A DNA stretch of 64,000 nucleotides, from positions 186,001 to 250,000 of the forward strand of contig DAHUXS010000003.1 of the NCBI GenBank assembly GCA_027306995.1, read 5' to 3'. This DNA is from Lysobacter sp. GTDB lineage: Bacteria; Pseudomonadota; Gammaproteobacteria; Xanthomonadales; Xanthomonadaceae. Position 1 is the stretch's first letter, and every line of letters starts with the position of its first letter. The position numbers and the translations under genes were made by a program. This document shows positions 33,634 to 41,892 of the stretch, one piece after another. Below the pieces are notes generated by a model, which was not told where the DNA came from, did not search any database, and worked only from the letters and a program-made list of their open reading frames with translations.

Positions 33634-34317
33634 ATGAATCTTTCGATCAAGGCAGGCGTGGTTGCTGCCATCGTGGTCAGCATGCTGGCCGGTTGCGCCA
33701 GTTACACCGGACAGACCAACGATCCCAATGATCCCAACCGCACCGGTCGCGGCGCGCTGATCGGTGCCGGCATCGGTGCTGCGGTCGGCTTGTTGGCCGG
33801 CACCAGCGCCAAGAATCGTCGCGAGAAGGCAATGCTCGGCGCCGGTATCGGTGCGCTGGCGGGTGGCGGTATCGGTGCCTACCAGGATCGCCAGGAAGCC
33901 GAATTGCGCCGACAGACCGCTGGCACCGGCGTGCAGGTGCAGCGCGATGGCGACGTCATCAAGCTCAACCTGCCGGACGGCGTGACCTTCGATTTCAACA
34001 AGACCGATGTCAAGCCGCAGTTCTATCCGGCGCTGAACAACATCGCGCACACCATCGCGCAGTACAACCAGACCATCGTCGAAATCAATGGCCACACCGA
34101 CAACGTCGGCACCGTCGCGGTCAACCAGCGCATTTCCGAACAGCGCGCGCAATCGGTCGCCGGCTATCTGTCGGCGCAGGGCGTGCAGGGCGTACGCATG
34201 GAAACGCACGGCTACAACTTCCAGTATCCGATCGCCGACAACACCACCGATGCCGGACGCGCGGCCAATCGTCGCGTCGAGATCCGCCTGGTGCCGCTGA
34301 CCGGCAACGGATCCTGA
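33634..34317 (+). CDS. OmpA-family lipoprotein with glycine-zipper segment
   Basis: A 227-residue lipoprotein (lipobox MLAGC at about 18-22) with a glycine-zipper region (ALIGAGIGAAVGLLAG and AMLGAGIGALAGGGIGA) and a C-terminal OmpA/MotB peptidoglycan-binding domain from about residue 115, including NGHTDNVGT and the NRRVEIRLV end that holds diaminopimelate-contacting residues. It resembles E. coli YiaD and should tie the outer membrane to the cell wall. It has a good terminator-like hairpin after it. Confidence 0.9.
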   Translation: MNLSIKAGVVAAIVVSMLAGCASYTGQTNDPNDPNRTGRGALIGAGIGAAVGLLAGTSAKNRREKAMLGAGIGALAGGGIGAYQDRQEAELRRQTAGTGVQVQRDGDVIKLNLPDGVTFDFNKTDVKPQFYPALNNIAHTIAQYNQTIVEINGHTDNVGTVAVNQRISEQRAQSVAGYLSAQGVQGVRMETHGYNFQYPIADNTTDAGRAANRRVEIRLVPLTGNGS

Positions 34318-34351
34318 TTCCGATCGAACCATCGCCCACTGGTCGTACTCC

Positions 34352-34382
34352 GGAAAACCCCCTGTCCACCAGGGGGTTTTCC
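34352..34382 (+). terminator. Hairpin terminator after the OmpA-like gene
   Basis: A 12-bp perfect stem (GGAAAACCCCCT / AGGGGGTTTTCC) with a 7-base loop begins 35 bp after the stop. The T-run is part of the stem rather than after it, so termination strength is uncertain, but it insulates the copC promoter downstream. Confidence 0.6.
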
Positions 34383-34403
34383 ATGACCGGCAAGCGGAAA
34401 CCG

Positions 34404-34436
34404 CTTGACTCCGGACTGGACTCCAGGGGCGAGAAT
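34404..34436 (+). promoter_or_regulatory. MerR-family (ZntR/CueR-type) metal-responsive promoter of copCD
   Basis: A -35 TTGACT (34405-34410) and a -10-like GAGAAT (34431-34436) are separated by 20 bp, longer than the usual 17, as in promoters that MerR-family activators twist into shape. Between them lies the dyad ACTCCGGACT-GG-ACTCCAGGGG (34408-34429). From memory of the E. coli zntA promoter (operator ACTCTGGAGT-CG-ACTCCAGAGT with a 20-bp spacer), 17 of 22 operator positions are the same. The ATG of copC follows 39 bp after the -10. The regulator gene is not in the window. Confidence 0.75.
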
Positions 34437-34475
34437 CCATTCAATTGACCCATCCCGTTCAACAGGAGTTCGTCC

Positions 34476-34853
34476 ATGTCTTCCCGCATCCATCTCCGCC
34501 ACTGGATTGCCGCGCTCGCGCTTTCCGCAAGCGCCACCGCGTTCGCGCATCCCAAGCTCGTTTCCACCACGCCGGCCAATCACGCCACGGTGGCCGCGCC
34601 CGCCAGCATCAGCGTCACCTTTTCGGAAAAACTGCTGCCGGTGTCCGGCGCCGAACTGGTCATGACCAAGATGCCCGGCATGACGATGCCGCCGATGAAG
34701 ATCGCGGCCAAGGCTGCAGTGTCGGCGGACGGAAAGTCCCTGGTGCTCACTCCGGCCAAGTCGTTGTCGACGGGGACGTATCGCGTCGATTGGCACGTGG
34801 TGTCCACCGACACGCACGCGGTCAAGGATTCCTTCGAATTCACCGTGAAGTAA
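34476..34853 (+). CDS. copC: Periplasmic copper-binding protein CopC
   Basis: A 125-residue protein with a signal peptide; cleavage after AFA would leave His25 as the first mature residue, the N-terminal ligand of the CopC Cu(II) site. The matching Asp112 and His114 are present in STDTHAVKDSFEF. A methionine-rich loop with Met63, 66, 69, 71 and 74 (VMTKMPGMTMPPM) fits a Cu(I) site. It carries copper in the periplasm for tolerance or supply. It is followed by copD after 10 bp and is driven by the MerR-type promoter upstream. The family call is firm. Confidence 0.92.
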   Translation: MSSRIHLRHWIAALALSASATAFAHPKLVSTTPANHATVAAPASISVTFSEKLLPVSGAELVMTKMPGMTMPPMKIAAKAAVSADGKSLVLTPAKSLSTGTYRVDWHVVSTDTHAVKDSFEFTVK

Positions 34854-35846: not shown

Positions 35847-38800
35847 TCAGCGGGTGGCACGCGTTTCCAGCCATTCGTAAAGCACCGGCAGCAGGATCAG
35901 CGTCAGCAATGTCGAGCTGATCAATCCGCCGACCACGACGGTCGCAAGCGGTCGCTGCGTTTCCGCGCCGACACCGGTCGAGAGCAGCATCGGCACCAGT
36001 CCCAGGATCGCCACGCTCGCCGTCATCAGCACCGGGCGCAGGCGCAGTGCGGTGCCTTGCACCACGGCCTCGCGCACCGACAATCCCTTGTCGCGCAGTT
36101 CGTTGAGGAAGCTCACCAGCACGATGCCGTTGAGCATCGCCACGCCGAACACCGCGATGAAGCCGATCGCCGAGGGCACCGACAGGTACTGCCCGGTGAC
36201 GAACAGCGCGAGCAGGCCGCCGATGGTGGCGAAGGGGACGTTGGCGATGATCAGGGTGGCGTACCGGATCGAGTTGAACGCGGTATAGAGCAGCACGAAG
36301 ATGAAGAAGATCGTTACCGGCACGATCACCGCCAGTTTGGCCAGGGCGCGTTGCTGGTTCTCGAAGGCGCCGCCCCATTCGATCCAGTAGCCGGGCGGCA
36401 GCTTGACCTGCTGGCCGATGGTGGCGTTGGCGTCCTTCACGAAGCCGTCGACGTCACGGCCACGCACGTCCATCTGGATCACCGCGTAACGCTGCAACTG
36501 CTCGCGACGCACGAAGGAGTAGCCTTCGCCAACACTGACGGTGGCCACTTCCGACAATGCCACCACTGCGCCAGTCGTCGTGCGCAGCGGAATGCGCCGC
36601 AAGGCTTCGACGGAATCCCGGGTGCTGTCATCAAGGCGTACCGCGATATCGAAACGCTTGACGCCATCGAGCAACACGCTCACCGGTTCCCCGCCCAGTC
36701 CGTTGCGGACGATGGTCAACACATCCTCGGCATTCATGCCGTAGCGGGCCAGGGCATCGCGATTCACCGCGATGCGGATCTGCGGCTTGCCGACGTTGGC
36801 TTCCAGCGACAGGTCGGCCACGCCGGGGACGCGCCCCAACGCCGTCTTGATCTGGCCGCTGAGCTTGTCGAGTTGTTGCAGGTCCTGCCCGTACAGTTTT
36901 AACGCCAGGGTGGCGCGCACGCCGGAGATCAGTTCTTCCACGCGCATCTGGATCGGCTGGGTGTAGCCGGGCACGACGTTCGGCACGACCTTTTCCAGTG
37001 TTTCCTGCATCGCGCGCTCGAGCCCCTTGATGTCGCGGCCGGTGGTCCATTCCTTCTCCGGCTTCAGTGCCGTGTAGATCTCCATGTAGTTGACGTCGGC
37101 GGTCTCGCCTTTTTCCGCACGGCCGATCATCGCCAGCGTGGTGTCGACTTCCGGAAACTTCTTGAAAGCCTCGGCGATCACGTTGCTGGTGCGGATCGAT
37201 TCGTCCAGCGAGGTCGAGGGAATCCCGGTGACGCGCCACATGATCGAGCCTTCCTGCAGCTGCGGCATGAATTCCTTGCCGAGGAAGGGGAAGATGGCGA
37301 GGCTCGCGACCAATGCCGTCACGGCGCCGATCACCACCACCTTCTTCTTCGCCAGCGCCTTGTCGAGCAATGGCCGATAGACGCGCTTGATGCGGGCCAC
37401 CAGCCAGGTGTCGCGTTCTTCCTTCGGCTTGAGGATGAGCGCGGCCAGCACCGGAATCAGGGTGAGGCTGAGGATGAGCGAGCCGGCCATCGCGAAGGCG
37501 ATGTTGAAGGCCATCGGCTTGAACATCTTGCCTTCCAATCCCTCGAGCGAGAACAGCGGCAGGAAGACCACGATGATGATGCTGATGGCGAAGGCGATCG
37601 GGTTGGCGACTTCCTTCGCGGCCGCCAGCACGGCCGACGTGCGATCGACCTTTTCGCCGCGCTCGTGACGCTCGGCCATGATGCGGAAGACGTTCTCCAC
37701 CATCACCACTGCGCCGTCGACCATCATGCCGATGCCGATCGCCAAGCCCGCCAGCGACATCAGGTTGGCCGAGAGTCCCGCCTGGCCCATGCCGATGAAG
37801 GCGATCAGCATCGCCAGGGGCAGGGTGACGATGACAACGATCGCCGAACGGATTTCGCCGAGGAACAAGAACAGAACGATCGCGACCAACAGCGAGCCTT
37901 CGATCAAAGCGCGTACGGCGGTGCCGACCGCCTTGTTGACGAGATCCGTGCGTTCGTAGATCGGCCGCAGCACCATGGTCTTCGGCAATGCGGCGCGCAC
38001 GACGTCGAGCTTGCCCTTGACCGCTTCGACCACGTCCTTGGCGTTTTCGCCGATGCGGGCGAGCGCCTGGCCCATCACGACTTCCTGGCCATCGCGAGTG
38101 ACGGCGCCGAAACGCGGCGCCGCCGCCTCGACGACGGTCGCGACATCGCGCAGGTAGACCGGCGAGCCCGCGTCGCTCTTCAGCACGATGGCGCCGATAT
38201 CGCCGGTCGTCTTGAGCAATCCGAGGCCGCGCACCAGGAATTGCTCGCGGCCGACATCCATCACGTTGCCGCCGACCTGTCCGTTGTTGGCGGGAATCGC
38301 ATTGATCACGTCGGCGAAGCCGAGCCCGCGCGCATAGAGCCGTTCGGGATCGATCCGTACCTGGAACTGGCGTTCGCCACCGCCCCAGGAACTGACATCG
38401 TCGACACCCGGCGCGGTGCGCAGGATCAGCCGCACCGTCCATTCCTGCCAGGTGCGCAGGTCCATGTCGCTGACCTGTTGCTTGCCCATGCCGGGCGCGC
38501 GCTCGACCGTGTACCAGTACACCTGTCCGAGTCCCGAGGTGTTCGGGCCCATCGCGGGTTTTCCGTAACCCTGTGGCAGGCGATCGCCGATCTCCTGCAG
38601 ACGCTCGCCAACGAGTTGTCGCGCGAAGTAGATGTCCATGTCATCGGCGAAATACACCGAAACGTAGGACAGGCCGAACAGGCTGACCGATCGGATTTCC
38701 TTCACCTTGGGCAGGCCCGCGAGCGCGGATTCCACGGGGGTGGTCAGTAGCTGTTCGACATCCTCGGCAGCGAGTCCCGGCGATTCGGTATAGATGTTGA

Positions 38801-38939
38801 CCTGCACCGGGGTCACGTCGGGGAAGGCATCGATCGGCACGTTGCGTATCGCGCGCAGGCCGAGGAAGGCGACCACGGCGAAGACGATCAGGACCAGGAA
38901 CTTGTAACGGAGGGAGACCTCGACGAGACGATTCAGCAT
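35847..38939 (-). CDS. Heavy-metal efflux RND pump (CzcA/CusA family)
   Basis: A 1030-residue inner-membrane pump with the heavy-metal RND pattern: the N-terminal MLNRLVEVSLRYKFLVLIV segment, RNVPIDAFPDVTPVQV, two large periplasmic loops, and the membrane motif GIGMMVDGAVVMVENVF with the proton-relay Asp. The second half ends in the LRLRPVLMTASVAILGLVPMLLSTG and VVGGLISSTLLTLILLPVLY stretch. It exports metal ions with the adaptor and outer-membrane channel encoded upstream. Which metal (Co/Zn/Cd versus Cu/Ag) cannot be judged from these residues. It begins 37 bp after the adaptor gene. Confidence 0.92.
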   Translation of the reverse strand: MLNRLVEVSLRYKFLVLIVFAVVAFLGLRAIRNVPIDAFPDVTPVQVNIYTESPGLAAEDVEQLLTTPVESALAGLPKVKEIRSVSLFGLSYVSVYFADDMDIYFARQLVGERLQEIGDRLPQGYGKPAMGPNTSGLGQVYWYTVERAPGMGKQQVSDMDLRTWQEWTVRLILRTAPGVDDVSSWGGGERQFQVRIDPERLYARGLGFADVINAIPANNGQVGGNVMDVGREQFLVRGLGLLKTTGDIGAIVLKSDAGSPVYLRDVATVVEAAAPRFGAVTRDGQEVVMGQALARIGENAKDVVEAVKGKLDVVRAALPKTMVLRPIYERTDLVNKAVGTAVRALIEGSLLVAIVLFLFLGEIRSAIVVIVTLPLAMLIAFIGMGQAGLSANLMSLAGLAIGIGMMVDGAVVMVENVFRIMAERHERGEKVDRTSAVLAAAKEVANPIAFAISIIIVVFLPLFSLEGLEGKMFKPMAFNIAFAMAGSLILSLTLIPVLAALILKPKEERDTWLVARIKRVYRPLLDKALAKKKVVVIGAVTALVASLAIFPFLGKEFMPQLQEGSIMWRVTGIPSTSLDESIRTSNVIAEAFKKFPEVDTTLAMIGRAEKGETADVNYMEIYTALKPEKEWTTGRDIKGLERAMQETLEKVVPNVVPGYTQPIQMRVEELISGVRATLALKLYGQDLQQLDKLSGQIKTALGRVPGVADLSLEANVGKPQIRIAVNRDALARYGMNAEDVLTIVRNGLGGEPVSVLLDGVKRFDIAVRLDDSTRDSVEALRRIPLRTTTGAVVALSEVATVSVGEGYSFVRREQLQRYAVIQMDVRGRDVDGFVKDANATIGQQVKLPPGYWIEWGGAFENQQRALAKLAVIVPVTIFFIFVLLYTAFNSIRYATLIIANVPFATIGGLLALFVTGQYLSVPSAIGFIAVFGVAMLNGIVLVSFLNELRDKGLSVREAVVQGTALRLRPVLMTASVAILGLVPMLLSTGVGAETQRPLATVVVGGLISSTLLTLILLPVLYEWLETRATR

Positions 38940-38976
38940 GATCCCGTCCCCAGCGGATGATCGGCGGGAAGAGTTT

Positions 38977-40116
38977 TCATTCGGCCTCTCCCAGCTGCGA
39001 CTTCAGCATTTGCGCCTTCAGCTTGAAGGCGCCATCGACGACGACGGTGTCGCCGGTCTTCAGCCCTTCGCGGATTACCGTGCGTTCGCCCAGCGTTTCG
39101 CCGGTGCGCACCGGAACGGGCTCGATCGCGCCCTTGGCGTCGCGACGAAACACCACGGTTTCGCCCTGCAGTTGCACGATCGCCGCGACGGGCACCGACA
39201 ATGCGTTCGCGGAACGATTGGTCGTTGCATCTTCGCCATCGGCTTTCAGGATGACTTCGACGAAATCCCCCGCGTGCAGGATGTCATCGCGATTCGGGAC
39301 CTCGACGCGCACGCTGGCGTTGCGGGTGGCGTCCGAAGTGCGATGGGCGCTGCGCAATACCTTGCCGGCCAGCTGCTTGCCGTTGAACACGATGGTTGCA
39401 TCGTGACCAGGTTCGATCCGCGGCGCCGTGCCCGGGGCGAGGCGTGCATCCACCCACACTGCCGATTCGTTGACCAGGCGATAAAGCGCCTTGCCGGGTT
39501 CGATGCGTTCCCCGATCACGAAATCGTCTTGGGTAATGCGGCCGGCGTGCGGCGCGAACAGGGTGAATTGGCCATTGACGGTTCCGCTGGCGCTGCCCGG
39601 CAATCCATAGGCCTGCGCTTTCGCACGGGCGCGGTCGAGGGCGACGCGCGCTTCGGTGATGCGACGTCCGGCCACGGCTTCCGGGCCCAATGCCGCGACT
39701 CGGCGATATTCCTGTTCGGCGACGCGCAGGTCGGCCTGTGCATCGGAGACTTGCACGCTCGCCAGCGTCACCAGAGGTGCACCGGCACGCACTTCATCGC
39801 CAAGCTTGGCGTGGCGACGGACCACCAGCGATTCGACGCGCGGCGTGATCAGCGTGGTGCCATAGGCGCTGTCCAGCACTTCGCCCGGAACGCGAATCGA
39901 CCCGCTGACCTGCGATGCCTGCACGGCTTCGACCCGGATGCCGGCAGCTTTCAACGTCGCATCATCCATGCGCAGTCCTTCACCGGGCGTTGCAATCGTT
40001 TCAGTTGCGGCAGGCGGCGCGGGCGGCGTCGAACGACCACACGCCGACAAGCCGAGCGCGATCAGCGCAGCGGGAAGGGCATTCAAGGGGAATGATTTCA
40101 TCGAAACAGGTCTCAT
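38977..40116 (-). CDS. RND efflux periplasmic adaptor lipoprotein (CzcB-like)
   Basis: A 379-residue membrane-fusion protein. A lipoprotein signal ends in LSACG, then comes a barrel-sandwich domain split by a helical hairpin (AQADLRVAEQEYRRVAALG, about residues 155-200) and the later SVPVAAIVQLQGETVVF stretch. It would bridge pump and channel. ATG 40116 overlaps the stop of the TolC-like gene (ATGA), so it is preferred over ATG 40101. Few histidines or methionines are visible, so it may not bind metal itself. Confidence 0.9.
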   Translation of the reverse strand: MRPVSMKSFPLNALPAALIALGLSACGRSTPPAPPAATETIATPGEGLRMDDATLKAAGIRVEAVQASQVSGSIRVPGEVLDSAYGTTLITPRVESLVVRRHAKLGDEVRAGAPLVTLASVQVSDAQADLRVAEQEYRRVAALGPEAVAGRRITEARVALDRARAKAQAYGLPGSASGTVNGQFTLFAPHAGRITQDDFVIGERIEPGKALYRLVNESAVWVDARLAPGTAPRIEPGHDATIVFNGKQLAGKVLRSAHRTSDATRNASVRVEVPNRDDILHAGDFVEVILKADGEDATTNRSANALSVPVAAIVQLQGETVVFRRDAKGAIEPVPVRTGETLGERTVIREGLKTGDTVVVDGAFKLKAQMLKSQLGEAE

Positions 40117-41390
40117 GGCGTGGCCTCCAGTCCGGTCCAGCGTTCGAGCTGGCCGGTGGCGGCAAGGGCGTCGGTCCAGCTGCGCCACACCCGCGCTTCG
40201 AGCGCGGCGCCGGCGAGCTGGGTGTCCAGGGTCTGGCGCAGTTGCAGCAGGAAATCGGAGGGCGAGATGTCGCCCCCGCGCAGCAGTTTTTCCAGCAACG
40301 CGCCGCGGCGATCGCCATCGGTGCCGCGGCTGGAGGACCATTGCGTCCATGCGCTGCGCGCAGCGGCATAACCGGCGATTGCGCTGCGCTGGTCGGCCTC
40401 GAGTTGCAGGCGAAGCCGCGCGACTTCCGCGTCGGCGACTGCGGCATCCGCTTCGGCGGCGCTCACCTCCGCGCGATACGAATTGCGCACATGCAGCGGA
40501 ATGCTGACCGAAATGCCGGCGACGCGATCGCGGCGGCGGCCGTCGTACTGGATCGTGCCGGCGCGGATACCGACGGTCGGATCGGCGATGCGATTTTTCT
40601 TCGCGACCGCGATCTCGCGTTGCACGGCAAGCGCTTCCGCTTGCGCTGCCTGCAGGTCGGGAAGTCGCGTGATGTCCGTCGTCGCCGGCACGCGGTCCGG
40701 CAGTTGCGTGGTCGGCAATGCGGCAAGCATGGTCGAGTCCGGATCGCCGCCGACCGCGCGGAAACGCGCCTGCGCATCCGCCTGTTCGGAGACCAGCGTC
40801 GATTGCTCGGCCAGCGCTTCATCCAGCGCCAGTTGCGTCAGATCGCGTTCCAGCCCGGAAATATCCTGCGCGGCGAACTGCTTTTTCGCGATATCGGCGA
40901 AACGGCGCACGGCATCCAGGCGGCGTTCGCCGATCTGCAAGCGTTCGCGACTGCTCAGCACGTCGGCCAGCGATGCGAGCCAGCGACGCGCAAAATCGCG
41001 CCGCACGATCCGCGCCTGCATTTCCGACAAATTCAATCGCGCGGATGCCGCGTCCCGTCGCGCGCCCCGTTTGCCGCCGAGATCGAGCGTCAGCTTGATG
41101 CCGCCGGTCAGCGTGCGGTCCGGGCCGTTGTCGTCAGCCGCGAACTCCGCTTCGGGGTTGTAGATGGGGCGACCCGCGGCCGTCAGTCGTGCGCGTGCGG
41201 CAATGATCCTGGCATCGATCGCGGTCGAGTCTGGATGCCGGCGCCATGCTTCGGCGAGTGCGGATTGCAGGGAGGTAGGTGCGCGCGAATCGATGTTCGC
41301 GGCAACAGGTTGGAATGGGGCTGCCTGCACGGCCATCGGGCCATACAGGACGGCGACCCCGACGGCGCAAGCCGCGAGTCTTTGCAACAT
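40113..41390 (-). CDS. TolC-family outer-membrane channel (CzcC-like)
   Basis: A 425-residue exported protein with the two-repeat coiled-coil pattern of TolC-type channels: LQSALAEAWRRHPDSTAIDARIIAARARL near the start and RNSYRAEVSAAEADAAVADAEVARLRLQ in the second half. The signal peptide ends near MAVQAAP. The conserved PE-x-E strand (YNPEAEFAADDNG) is typical of heavy-metal efflux channels. It is first in the three-gene efflux operon and is coupled to the adaptor gene by ATGA. Confidence 0.9.
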   Translation of the reverse strand: MLQRLAACAVGVAVLYGPMAVQAAPFQPVAANIDSRAPTSLQSALAEAWRRHPDSTAIDARIIAARARLTAAGRPIYNPEAEFAADDNGPDRTLTGGIKLTLDLGGKRGARRDAASARLNLSEMQARIVRRDFARRWLASLADVLSSRERLQIGERRLDAVRRFADIAKKQFAAQDISGLERDLTQLALDEALAEQSTLVSEQADAQARFRAVGGDPDSTMLAALPTTQLPDRVPATTDITRLPDLQAAQAEALAVQREIAVAKKNRIADPTVGIRAGTIQYDGRRRDRVAGISVSIPLHVRNSYRAEVSAAEADAAVADAEVARLRLQLEADQRSAIAGYAAARSAWTQWSSSRGTDGDRRGALLEKLLRGGDISPSDFLLQLRQTLDTQLAGAALEARVWRSWTDALAATGQLERWTGLEATP

Positions 41391-41455: not shown

Positions 41456-41854
41456 TCAGGCCGCGATCGGAGGTCGGAACGGCGTCGGCCAGCGGCTGCT
41501 GGCGAGAATCGTTTGCAGATGCCATGCCGGTCGTGTCACCGGAGGCGGATTGAAGGCGTGCAAATGGAATTCAGCTGGCGTGGCGGCCGCCTGTCCGCAG
41601 CAATGGGCGAAATGCAGGAGCGCGTGCAGCGGAGCGGCACCTTCGCCTTCCTGGGCAGGTTGCACGATGCCCACCGATGCGATCGTCAGCGATGCATCGC
41701 CAATCTCGACGTGTTGTCCTGCAGGCGCGTGGGCGATCTCGTGCAGCTCACCCAGCGACGAAGCGACCGGGCGCAACGCCATCGACAGCGCCAGGACCGC
41801 CAACGCGATCAGGCGCAATGCAGCGGTCCAGCGGCGGCGGAATCGGAGCTTCAC
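41456..41854 (-). CDS. Small exported histidine-rich protein before the metal efflux operon
   Basis: A 132-residue protein with a basic, hydrophobic N-terminus (MKLRFRRRWTAALRLIALAVLALSMA) that reads as a signal peptide or anchor. The rest has many possible metal ligands: ELHEIAHAPAGQH, LHALLHFAHCCGQ and FHLHAF. I do not recognise a family. It lies 65 bp upstream of the RND operon on the same strand, so it may be a periplasmic metal buffer or sensor for that pump. The final 40 residues are Pro-rich. The gene is weakly supported but its location and composition argue for it. Confidence 0.6.
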   Translation of the reverse strand: MKLRFRRRWTAALRLIALAVLALSMALRPVASSLGELHEIAHAPAGQHVEIGDASLTIASVGIVQPAQEGEGAAPLHALLHFAHCCGQAAATPAEFHLHAFNPPPVTRPAWHLQTILASSRWPTPFRPPIAA

Positions 41855-41892
41855 CTGGCGAGGATAGCCGGGCCGCCGGAGCGGACACTATT

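Follow-up and report, generated by a model that had tools for sequence, protein, structure and literature searches.

The copCD locus and its upstream region

The window analysed here is a stretch of 64,000 nucleotides of a Lysobacter genome, and all positions refer to it unless another contig is named. It carries copC, coding for a periplasmic copper-binding protein, followed by copD, coding for a copper homeostasis membrane protein (Table 1); the cut-offs applied to these two proteins and to the regulator described below are curated NCBIfam model cut-offs. Convergent with copCD lies a CusA/CzcA-type RND efflux operon (35847-41390, minus strand), whose CzcA scores 1080.9 bits to TIGR00914, and before this operon stands a small reading frame (about 41460-41860, minus strand) with a His-Cys-Cys motif, recognized by eye.

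Table 1. Coordinates of the copCD promoter region, its genes and the candidate regulator
Feature	Position	Strand	Basis or remark
OmpA-family gene upstream of copC	33634-34317		ORF list; family by eye
Intrinsic terminator-like hairpin	34359-34376	+	separates copC from the OmpA-family gene; 1 found, shuffles mean 0.1
-35 hexamer TTGACT, copCD promoter	34405-34410	+	read from sequence; matrix match
22-bp imperfect dyad ACTCCGGACTGGACTCCAGGGG, proposed operator	34408-34429	+	zntA likeness, matrix, genome-wide pattern
-10 hexamer GAGAAT	34431-34436	+	20 bp from -35; read from sequence
copC, 125 aa	34476-34853	+	NF033814 112.5 bits (cut-off 95); PF04234 74.3 (cut-off 23.3)
copD, 306 aa	34864-35784	+	NF033808 258.7 bits (cut-off 195)
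Metal-type MerR regulator	G000:C2:2229-2624	-	outside the window, on another contig than copCD

The DNA upstream of copC (34400-34440) reads accgcTTGACTccggactggactccaggggcGAGAATcc. As a first-pass annotation of this DNA had described, TTGACT and GAGAAT are separated by exactly 20 bp (34411-34430); the element ends where that annotation placed it and starts one base later than the 34404 given there, which is the preceding C. The annotation had also given an agreement of 17 of 22 positions between the dyad and the zntA operator of Escherichia coli, and the same count, 17 identical positions of 22, was obtained for 34408-34429 with the operator taken from E. coli K-12 MG1655 (NC_000913.3). The consensus in Permina et al. 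2006 (PMC1526738, in the part of the paper used here) is the same 22-mer as the MG1655 zntA operator. The internal symmetry of the copC dyad extends to 6 of 10 pairs only. We propose that this dyad is the operator of the MerR-type regulator listed last in Table 1.

Sister promoters and specificity within the genome

Two other promoters of the same build are present in this genome, TTGACT-19 bp-TAGAGT upstream of a multicopper oxidase gene and TTGACT-20 bp-TAGAGT upstream of the regulator gene itself. The MerR type assigned to the copC promoter by the first-pass annotation, defined by a spacing of 19-20 bp with the dyad inside it, describes all three (20 bp at copC and the regulator, 19 bp at the oxidase gene). 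The genome scan for the operator that had been suggested there returned three places: TTGACTCN{8,9}CTCCA has 3 matches in 2,831,150 bases, upstream of copC, of the oxidase gene and of the regulator gene, and its reversed control has none in the 2.83-Mb genome. Since this pattern was written after viewing the three sites, from their shared core, the absence of a fourth match is the informative part of the result. The looser TTGACYCN{8,9}STCMA gave the same 3 genome matches and 0 controls, and a 26-base pattern with up to 3 mismatches found the copC site only, missing the two sister promoters.

Run over 106,402 bases of own DNA, a matrix built from 33 foreign regulator-promoter sites, with the copC site left out of training, exceeded 8 bits at three places only: the regulator (45.0 bits), the oxidase gene (31.9) and copC (28.2). 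The best scores in 40 Markov sequences of 106,402 bases each ranged from -5.5 to 6.6. Because the copC score is lower than that of every training site (36.7-52.9 bits), this site is a good, but not typical, member of the putative operator set; the E. coli zntA operator reaches 29.3 bits on the same matrix. The neighbouring czcCBA-like operon was considered as a further target and rejected, as the copC site is the only matrix match above 8 bits in the window.

The candidate regulator and its gene cluster

The first-pass annotation had made its reading depend on the presence of a MerR-family regulator in the genome, and the scan gave three MerR_1 matches in 2.83 Mb, one of which is of the metal type. 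The other two were discarded as regulators of copC: the match at C3:80507 adjoins pheT- and ihfA-like genes and the one at C8:9340 an MFS gene (both by eye), neighbours in which no role in metal handling is recognizable. The metal-type regulator belongs to a cluster in the order multicopper oxidase, copB (CopB, PF05275, 284.5 bits), regulator and P-type ATPase, and the probable GTG start of the ATPase overlaps the regulator stop. The ATPase passes the cut-offs of both the Cu-type subfamily (TIGR01511, 571.8 bits, cut-off 397) and the Cd-type subfamily (TIGR01512, cut-off 313.5), the latter with a lower score of 390.4 bits. It also carries CPC, N-x6-YN-x4-P and MSLSS sequences, which we take to be a Cu(I) signature.

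The regulator itself scores below the curated cut-off of every model it was compared with: CueR (TIGR02044, 116.9 bits, cut-off 147.4), ZntR (TIGR02043, 124.8 bits, cut-off 167.95), the MerR mercury model (TIGR02051, 130.7 bits, cut-off 150.85) and CadR-PbrR (TIGR02047, 112.9 bits, cut-off 151.45). Of the ZntR- or CueR-like activator postulated in the first-pass annotation, the metal-type MerR protein, here located in a copper cluster, was thus found, but by these cut-offs it is neither CueR nor ZntR.

Related regulators and their operators

Related regulators were collected from two sources. Named genome contigs provided 14 of 23 loci (55-94% identity), nine loci with 30-40% identity (L049-L057) being left out, and a search of 199 relatives, 107 of which have a regulator match at 1e-25 or better, provided its best 30 loci. 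Dokdonella, Coralloluteibacterium, Luteimonas and Lysobacterales MAGs were the nearest named loci in the regulator search, which makes Lysobacterales the likely order of this genome. Together these are 48 regulator copies and 38 distinct proteins, 35 of them, own regulator included, at least 50% identical to our regulator; these 35 are referred to here as the clade. The two sources overlap, six contig loci being the same DNA as loci of the relatives, and counts are given by distinct protein (loci of the same DNA: L010/L035, L035/L075, L036/L076, L037/L077, L039/L091, L040/L084 and L042/L082). In a tree the clade forms one side of a branch with support 80/72 and long outgroup branches, so the tree gives weak support to its separation from CueR, ZntR, MerR and CadR.

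Of the 35 distinct regulators, own included, 34 are preceded by a TTGAC site whose spacer is 20 bp, at a distance of 56-77 bp from the start codon; the exception is L103 (genome G050), where the 130 bases upstream of the regulator lack the site. The conservation of TTG[AG]C is by construction, as the site search required these bases. Constant in all 34 sites are CT at columns 7-8, GA at 10-11, T at 18 and A at 21, and the operator word of the clade is of the TTGACTCTGGACC type. Furthermore, in 91 loci (478,167 bases, own included) every match above 12 bits precedes a regulator, oxidase or copC gene, except for mirror-image or shifted readings of such sites. In L035, 537 bases separate the oxidase site from the aligned start downstream of it, and another gene may therefore stand between the two. 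In genome G050 (L020, L103) the regulator search gave four matches at 1e-25 or better.

A homologue (1e-10 or better) of our ATPase, oxidase, CopB, CopC or CopD flanks the clade regulator in 39 of 44 loci, which corresponds to a copper-gene homologue near 32 of the 35 distinct regulators with our own locus included; L043 was counted solely by an oxidase match of 32-37% identity. No such homologue was found in the examined flanks of L047, L048, L079, L102 and L103, and the regulators of the first two are the same as those of L045 and L046, whose loci have the ATPase. Besides the clade regulator, the contigs of L045-L048 code for another regulator, which is MerR-like (43-44% identity, with a Cys at the third position) and located near CzcA-like genes. 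In a Xanthomonas campestris plasmid the order is oxidase, CopB, cytochrome c, NTF2-like, DUF411, four-helix copper-binding protein and clade regulator, the latter named 'heavy metal-responsive transcriptional regulator' and having its own site of 52.1 bits.

copC and its promoter in relatives

Of 149 genomes, 22 have a copC-like match, as have 2 of 17 genomes of the same genus (own included in both counts). Among the 25 other copC-like loci, with flanks of about 1.5 kb, a site before copC is present in L031 only. This locus belongs to the congener G014, which has two copies of copC and two of the regulator (L010, L031, L075). In L010 copCD is placed between the oxidase gene and the regulator, directly before the latter, and sites were found there only for the regulator and the oxidase gene and none for copC. 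L031 is a stand-alone copCD pair with its own site (39.1 bits). ACAGGAGTTC and AGAATC are kept in this leader; in its alignment with our copC leader, CGCTTGACTC-GGAC, AGAATC and the ribosome-site stretch are kept and much of the rest differs. In G050 (L020), copC and copD are also found just before a clade regulator, and the operon link between copCD and the regulator rests on these two genomes, G014 and G050.

DNA-reading residues and proposed metal pocket

In an alignment with CueR and ZntR of E. coli, taken from the genome record, all 35 clade regulators carry an Asp in the recognition helix, as ZntR does, at a position where CueR has Lys and MerR Glu. Within the MerR family, Asp has been correlated with G6/C13 in the operator, mainly in gammaproteobacterial HMRTR regulators (PMC5045206); the partial text of that paper used here is not explicit about the position, which was matched to the Asp column by the Lys/Glu/Asp pattern. 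G and C are indeed found at positions 6 and 13 of our copC site and, by eye, of its two sister sites. The Asp that its recognition helix shares with ZntR would let the regulator read a DNA word of the ZntR type.

Two C-terminal cysteines, eight residues apart, are present in 35 of 35 clade regulators, and the column of ZntR Cys79 and CueR Ser77 is occupied by Met in 30, Val in 5 and Cys in none; three of the 35 have an extra Cys elsewhere. Our regulator has Met at this third-ligand position and lacks the third Cys of Zn/Cd/Hg sensors. As a Cys at this position of CueR and GolS widens the response to divalent metals (PMC7911910, part of the paper) and the clade has none, a monovalent metal is favoured for the clade sensor. 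Since five members have Val, the Met would be at best a helper and would not be required throughout the clade. The combination of the ZntR-type Asp with the missing third Cys points to a copper sensor that probably uses a zinc-type operator, the unusual pairing that the first-pass annotation had anticipated.

It is conceivable, as a tentative and rather doubtful extension, that these regulators are a distinct lineage of copper sensors within the MerR family, in which a DNA-reading head of the zinc type is combined with a Cu(I) pocket made of two cysteines (Cys-x8-Cys) and a mostly conserved Met in place of Ser77, perhaps a Cys2-Met site, that this lineage is widespread in the order to which this genome belongs, and that it recruits stray copCD pairs by means of the zinc-type operator. 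To our knowledge, a Cys2-Met copper site has not been described for the MerR family.

A copper regulon and the alternatives

All these data make it very probable that the site in front of copC is the operator-promoter of copCD, and that it is one of at least three promoters forming a copper regulon under one MerR-family activator encoded on another contig. The sequence itself shows the site with its spacing, its two sisters, the regulator and, among relatives, the conserved operator of the regulator gene; binding, metal and activation are what we infer. According to this proposal, the metal-free regulator dimer would keep the promoter, whose spacer is too long, in an unfavourable form. Once cytosolic Cu(I) is bound by the two C-terminal cysteines, the dimer would distort the DNA and thereby bring -35 and -10 into a position suited to RNA polymerase, and copCD would be turned on along with oxidase-copB and regulator-ATPase. 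The kind of mechanism is already known; new are the combination and the rule that holds throughout the clade.

The same regulator could control copCD and sense divalent metals (Zn, Cd, Pb) instead, a reading that we consider improbable. It agrees with the likeness of the operator to that of zntA, with the higher score of the regulator to the ZntR model than to the CueR model, both below cut-off, with the Cd-type cut-off passed by its own ATPase and with the presence of CzcA-like genes in 6 of 44 related loci. However, a Cys at the third-ligand position was found in none of the 35 regulators, the ATPase scores higher as Cu-type, its neighbours are an oxidase and CopB, joined by CopC and CopD in two relatives, and copper induces a regulator that bears the product name of a clade member (PMC10667631, in the part used here). 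A different explanation is that copCD is driven by a two-component system similar to CopRS or CusRS, or by both this and the MerR-type regulator, the dyad being a relic. In support of it, copABCD of Pseudomonas syringae lies with copRS (PMC10141476, partial text) and the genome has 31 matches to the CopR model, but none of these reaches the CopR cut-off of 279.2 bits, the best one (251.9 bits) adjoins ribulose-epimerase and phosphatase genes (by eye), and the promoter core is kept in the G014 copy while much of the remaining leader differs. The preference of the first-pass annotation for a MerR-type regulator over CopRS was in this way sustained as far as the CopR cut-off goes, and it falls short of removing two-component input altogether, to which we give a very small probability.

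Least probable is that copCD has an ordinary sigma-70 promoter, active constitutively, and that the dyad arose by chance. The -35 is near consensus and the -10 matches 4 of 6 positions, but a search of 34280-34520 for sigma-70 promoters with a spacer of 16-18 bp gave none, and chance is hard to reconcile with the genome-wide specificity (3 matches, 0 controls) together with the 28.2-bit matrix score.

The proposed copper regulon under a MerR-family activator offers one-component control for copCD, for which CopRS is the usual assumption. It would also be a case in which the operator type does not tell the metal, so that naming a regulator after a ZntR-like operator, or after a best hit to MerR or ZntR, would assign it the wrong metal. 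Additionally, the matrix is a specific means of locating this proposed regulon in related genomes, including the plasmid-borne copper cluster.

Comparison with known systems

The CueR/HmrR regulons (cueR, copA and cueO in E. coli) are also governed by a MerR-family activator, and the targets of E. coli CueR are an oxidase and a Cu ATPase, as proposed here (PMC1526738 and PMC10141476, both in part). Like CueR, all 35 clade regulators have two sensor cysteines without a third Cys at position 77, and the 19-bp spacer of the CueR regulon is found here at the oxidase promoter. In contrast, the operator is of the ACTCTGG type and not of the ACCTTCC type of CueR, the spacer is 20 bp at two of the three promoters, the reading helix has Asp instead of Lys, eight residues instead of seven separate the sensor cysteines, Met replaces Ser at the Ser77 position, the score is below the CueR cut-off, and copB and copCD are part of the proposed regulon. 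With ZntR-zntA of E. coli the system has in common the 22-bp operator word, the 20-bp spacer and the recognition Asp, and a ACTCTGGAGT-type 22-bp operator in a 20-bp spacer, as defines ZntR sites, is found at copC with the 17 of 22 agreement; Cys79 and the adjacent Cys114-Cys115 of ZntR are not in our regulator, which also remains below the ZntR cut-off. The gammaproteobacterial HMRTR regulators share the pairing of Asp with the operator bases and have 22-bp sites, and the clade is probably this HMRTR group; in the part of that paper used here, copper is mentioned once, in a general list, and the group is not tied to copper (PMC5045206).

In the literature searched, mostly without subscription journals, we found no report of an operator of this type before copCD; PMC7015863, used in part, provided general background. 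In Stenotrophomonas maltophilia, cueR and the ATPase are induced by copper and gold (PMC7911910, partial text), but this regulator, with a 19-bp promoter and its gene after the ATPase, was taken as a true CueR and rejected as support for our proposal. For a Xanthomonas candidate gene, the portion used of PMC13115771 reports no CueR-like structure. Closer to the present case, the strongest copper induction in Pseudoxanthomonas spadix ZSY-33 (log2 8.66 and 7.23) was that of a gene named 'heavy metal-responsive transcriptional regulator', whose number adjoins that of a P-type ATPase gene and differs by four from that of copB (PMC10667631, in part). A clade member at 69% identity has the same product name, and from this name and the gene order we infer that the P. 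spadix gene is in the clade. MerR-family regulators of Alteromonas (cd04787), compared by description, also adjoin copper P-type ATPases, and a copCD pair located apart from copAB is induced 10-13-fold by copper in these bacteria (PMC8478169, in the sections used here).
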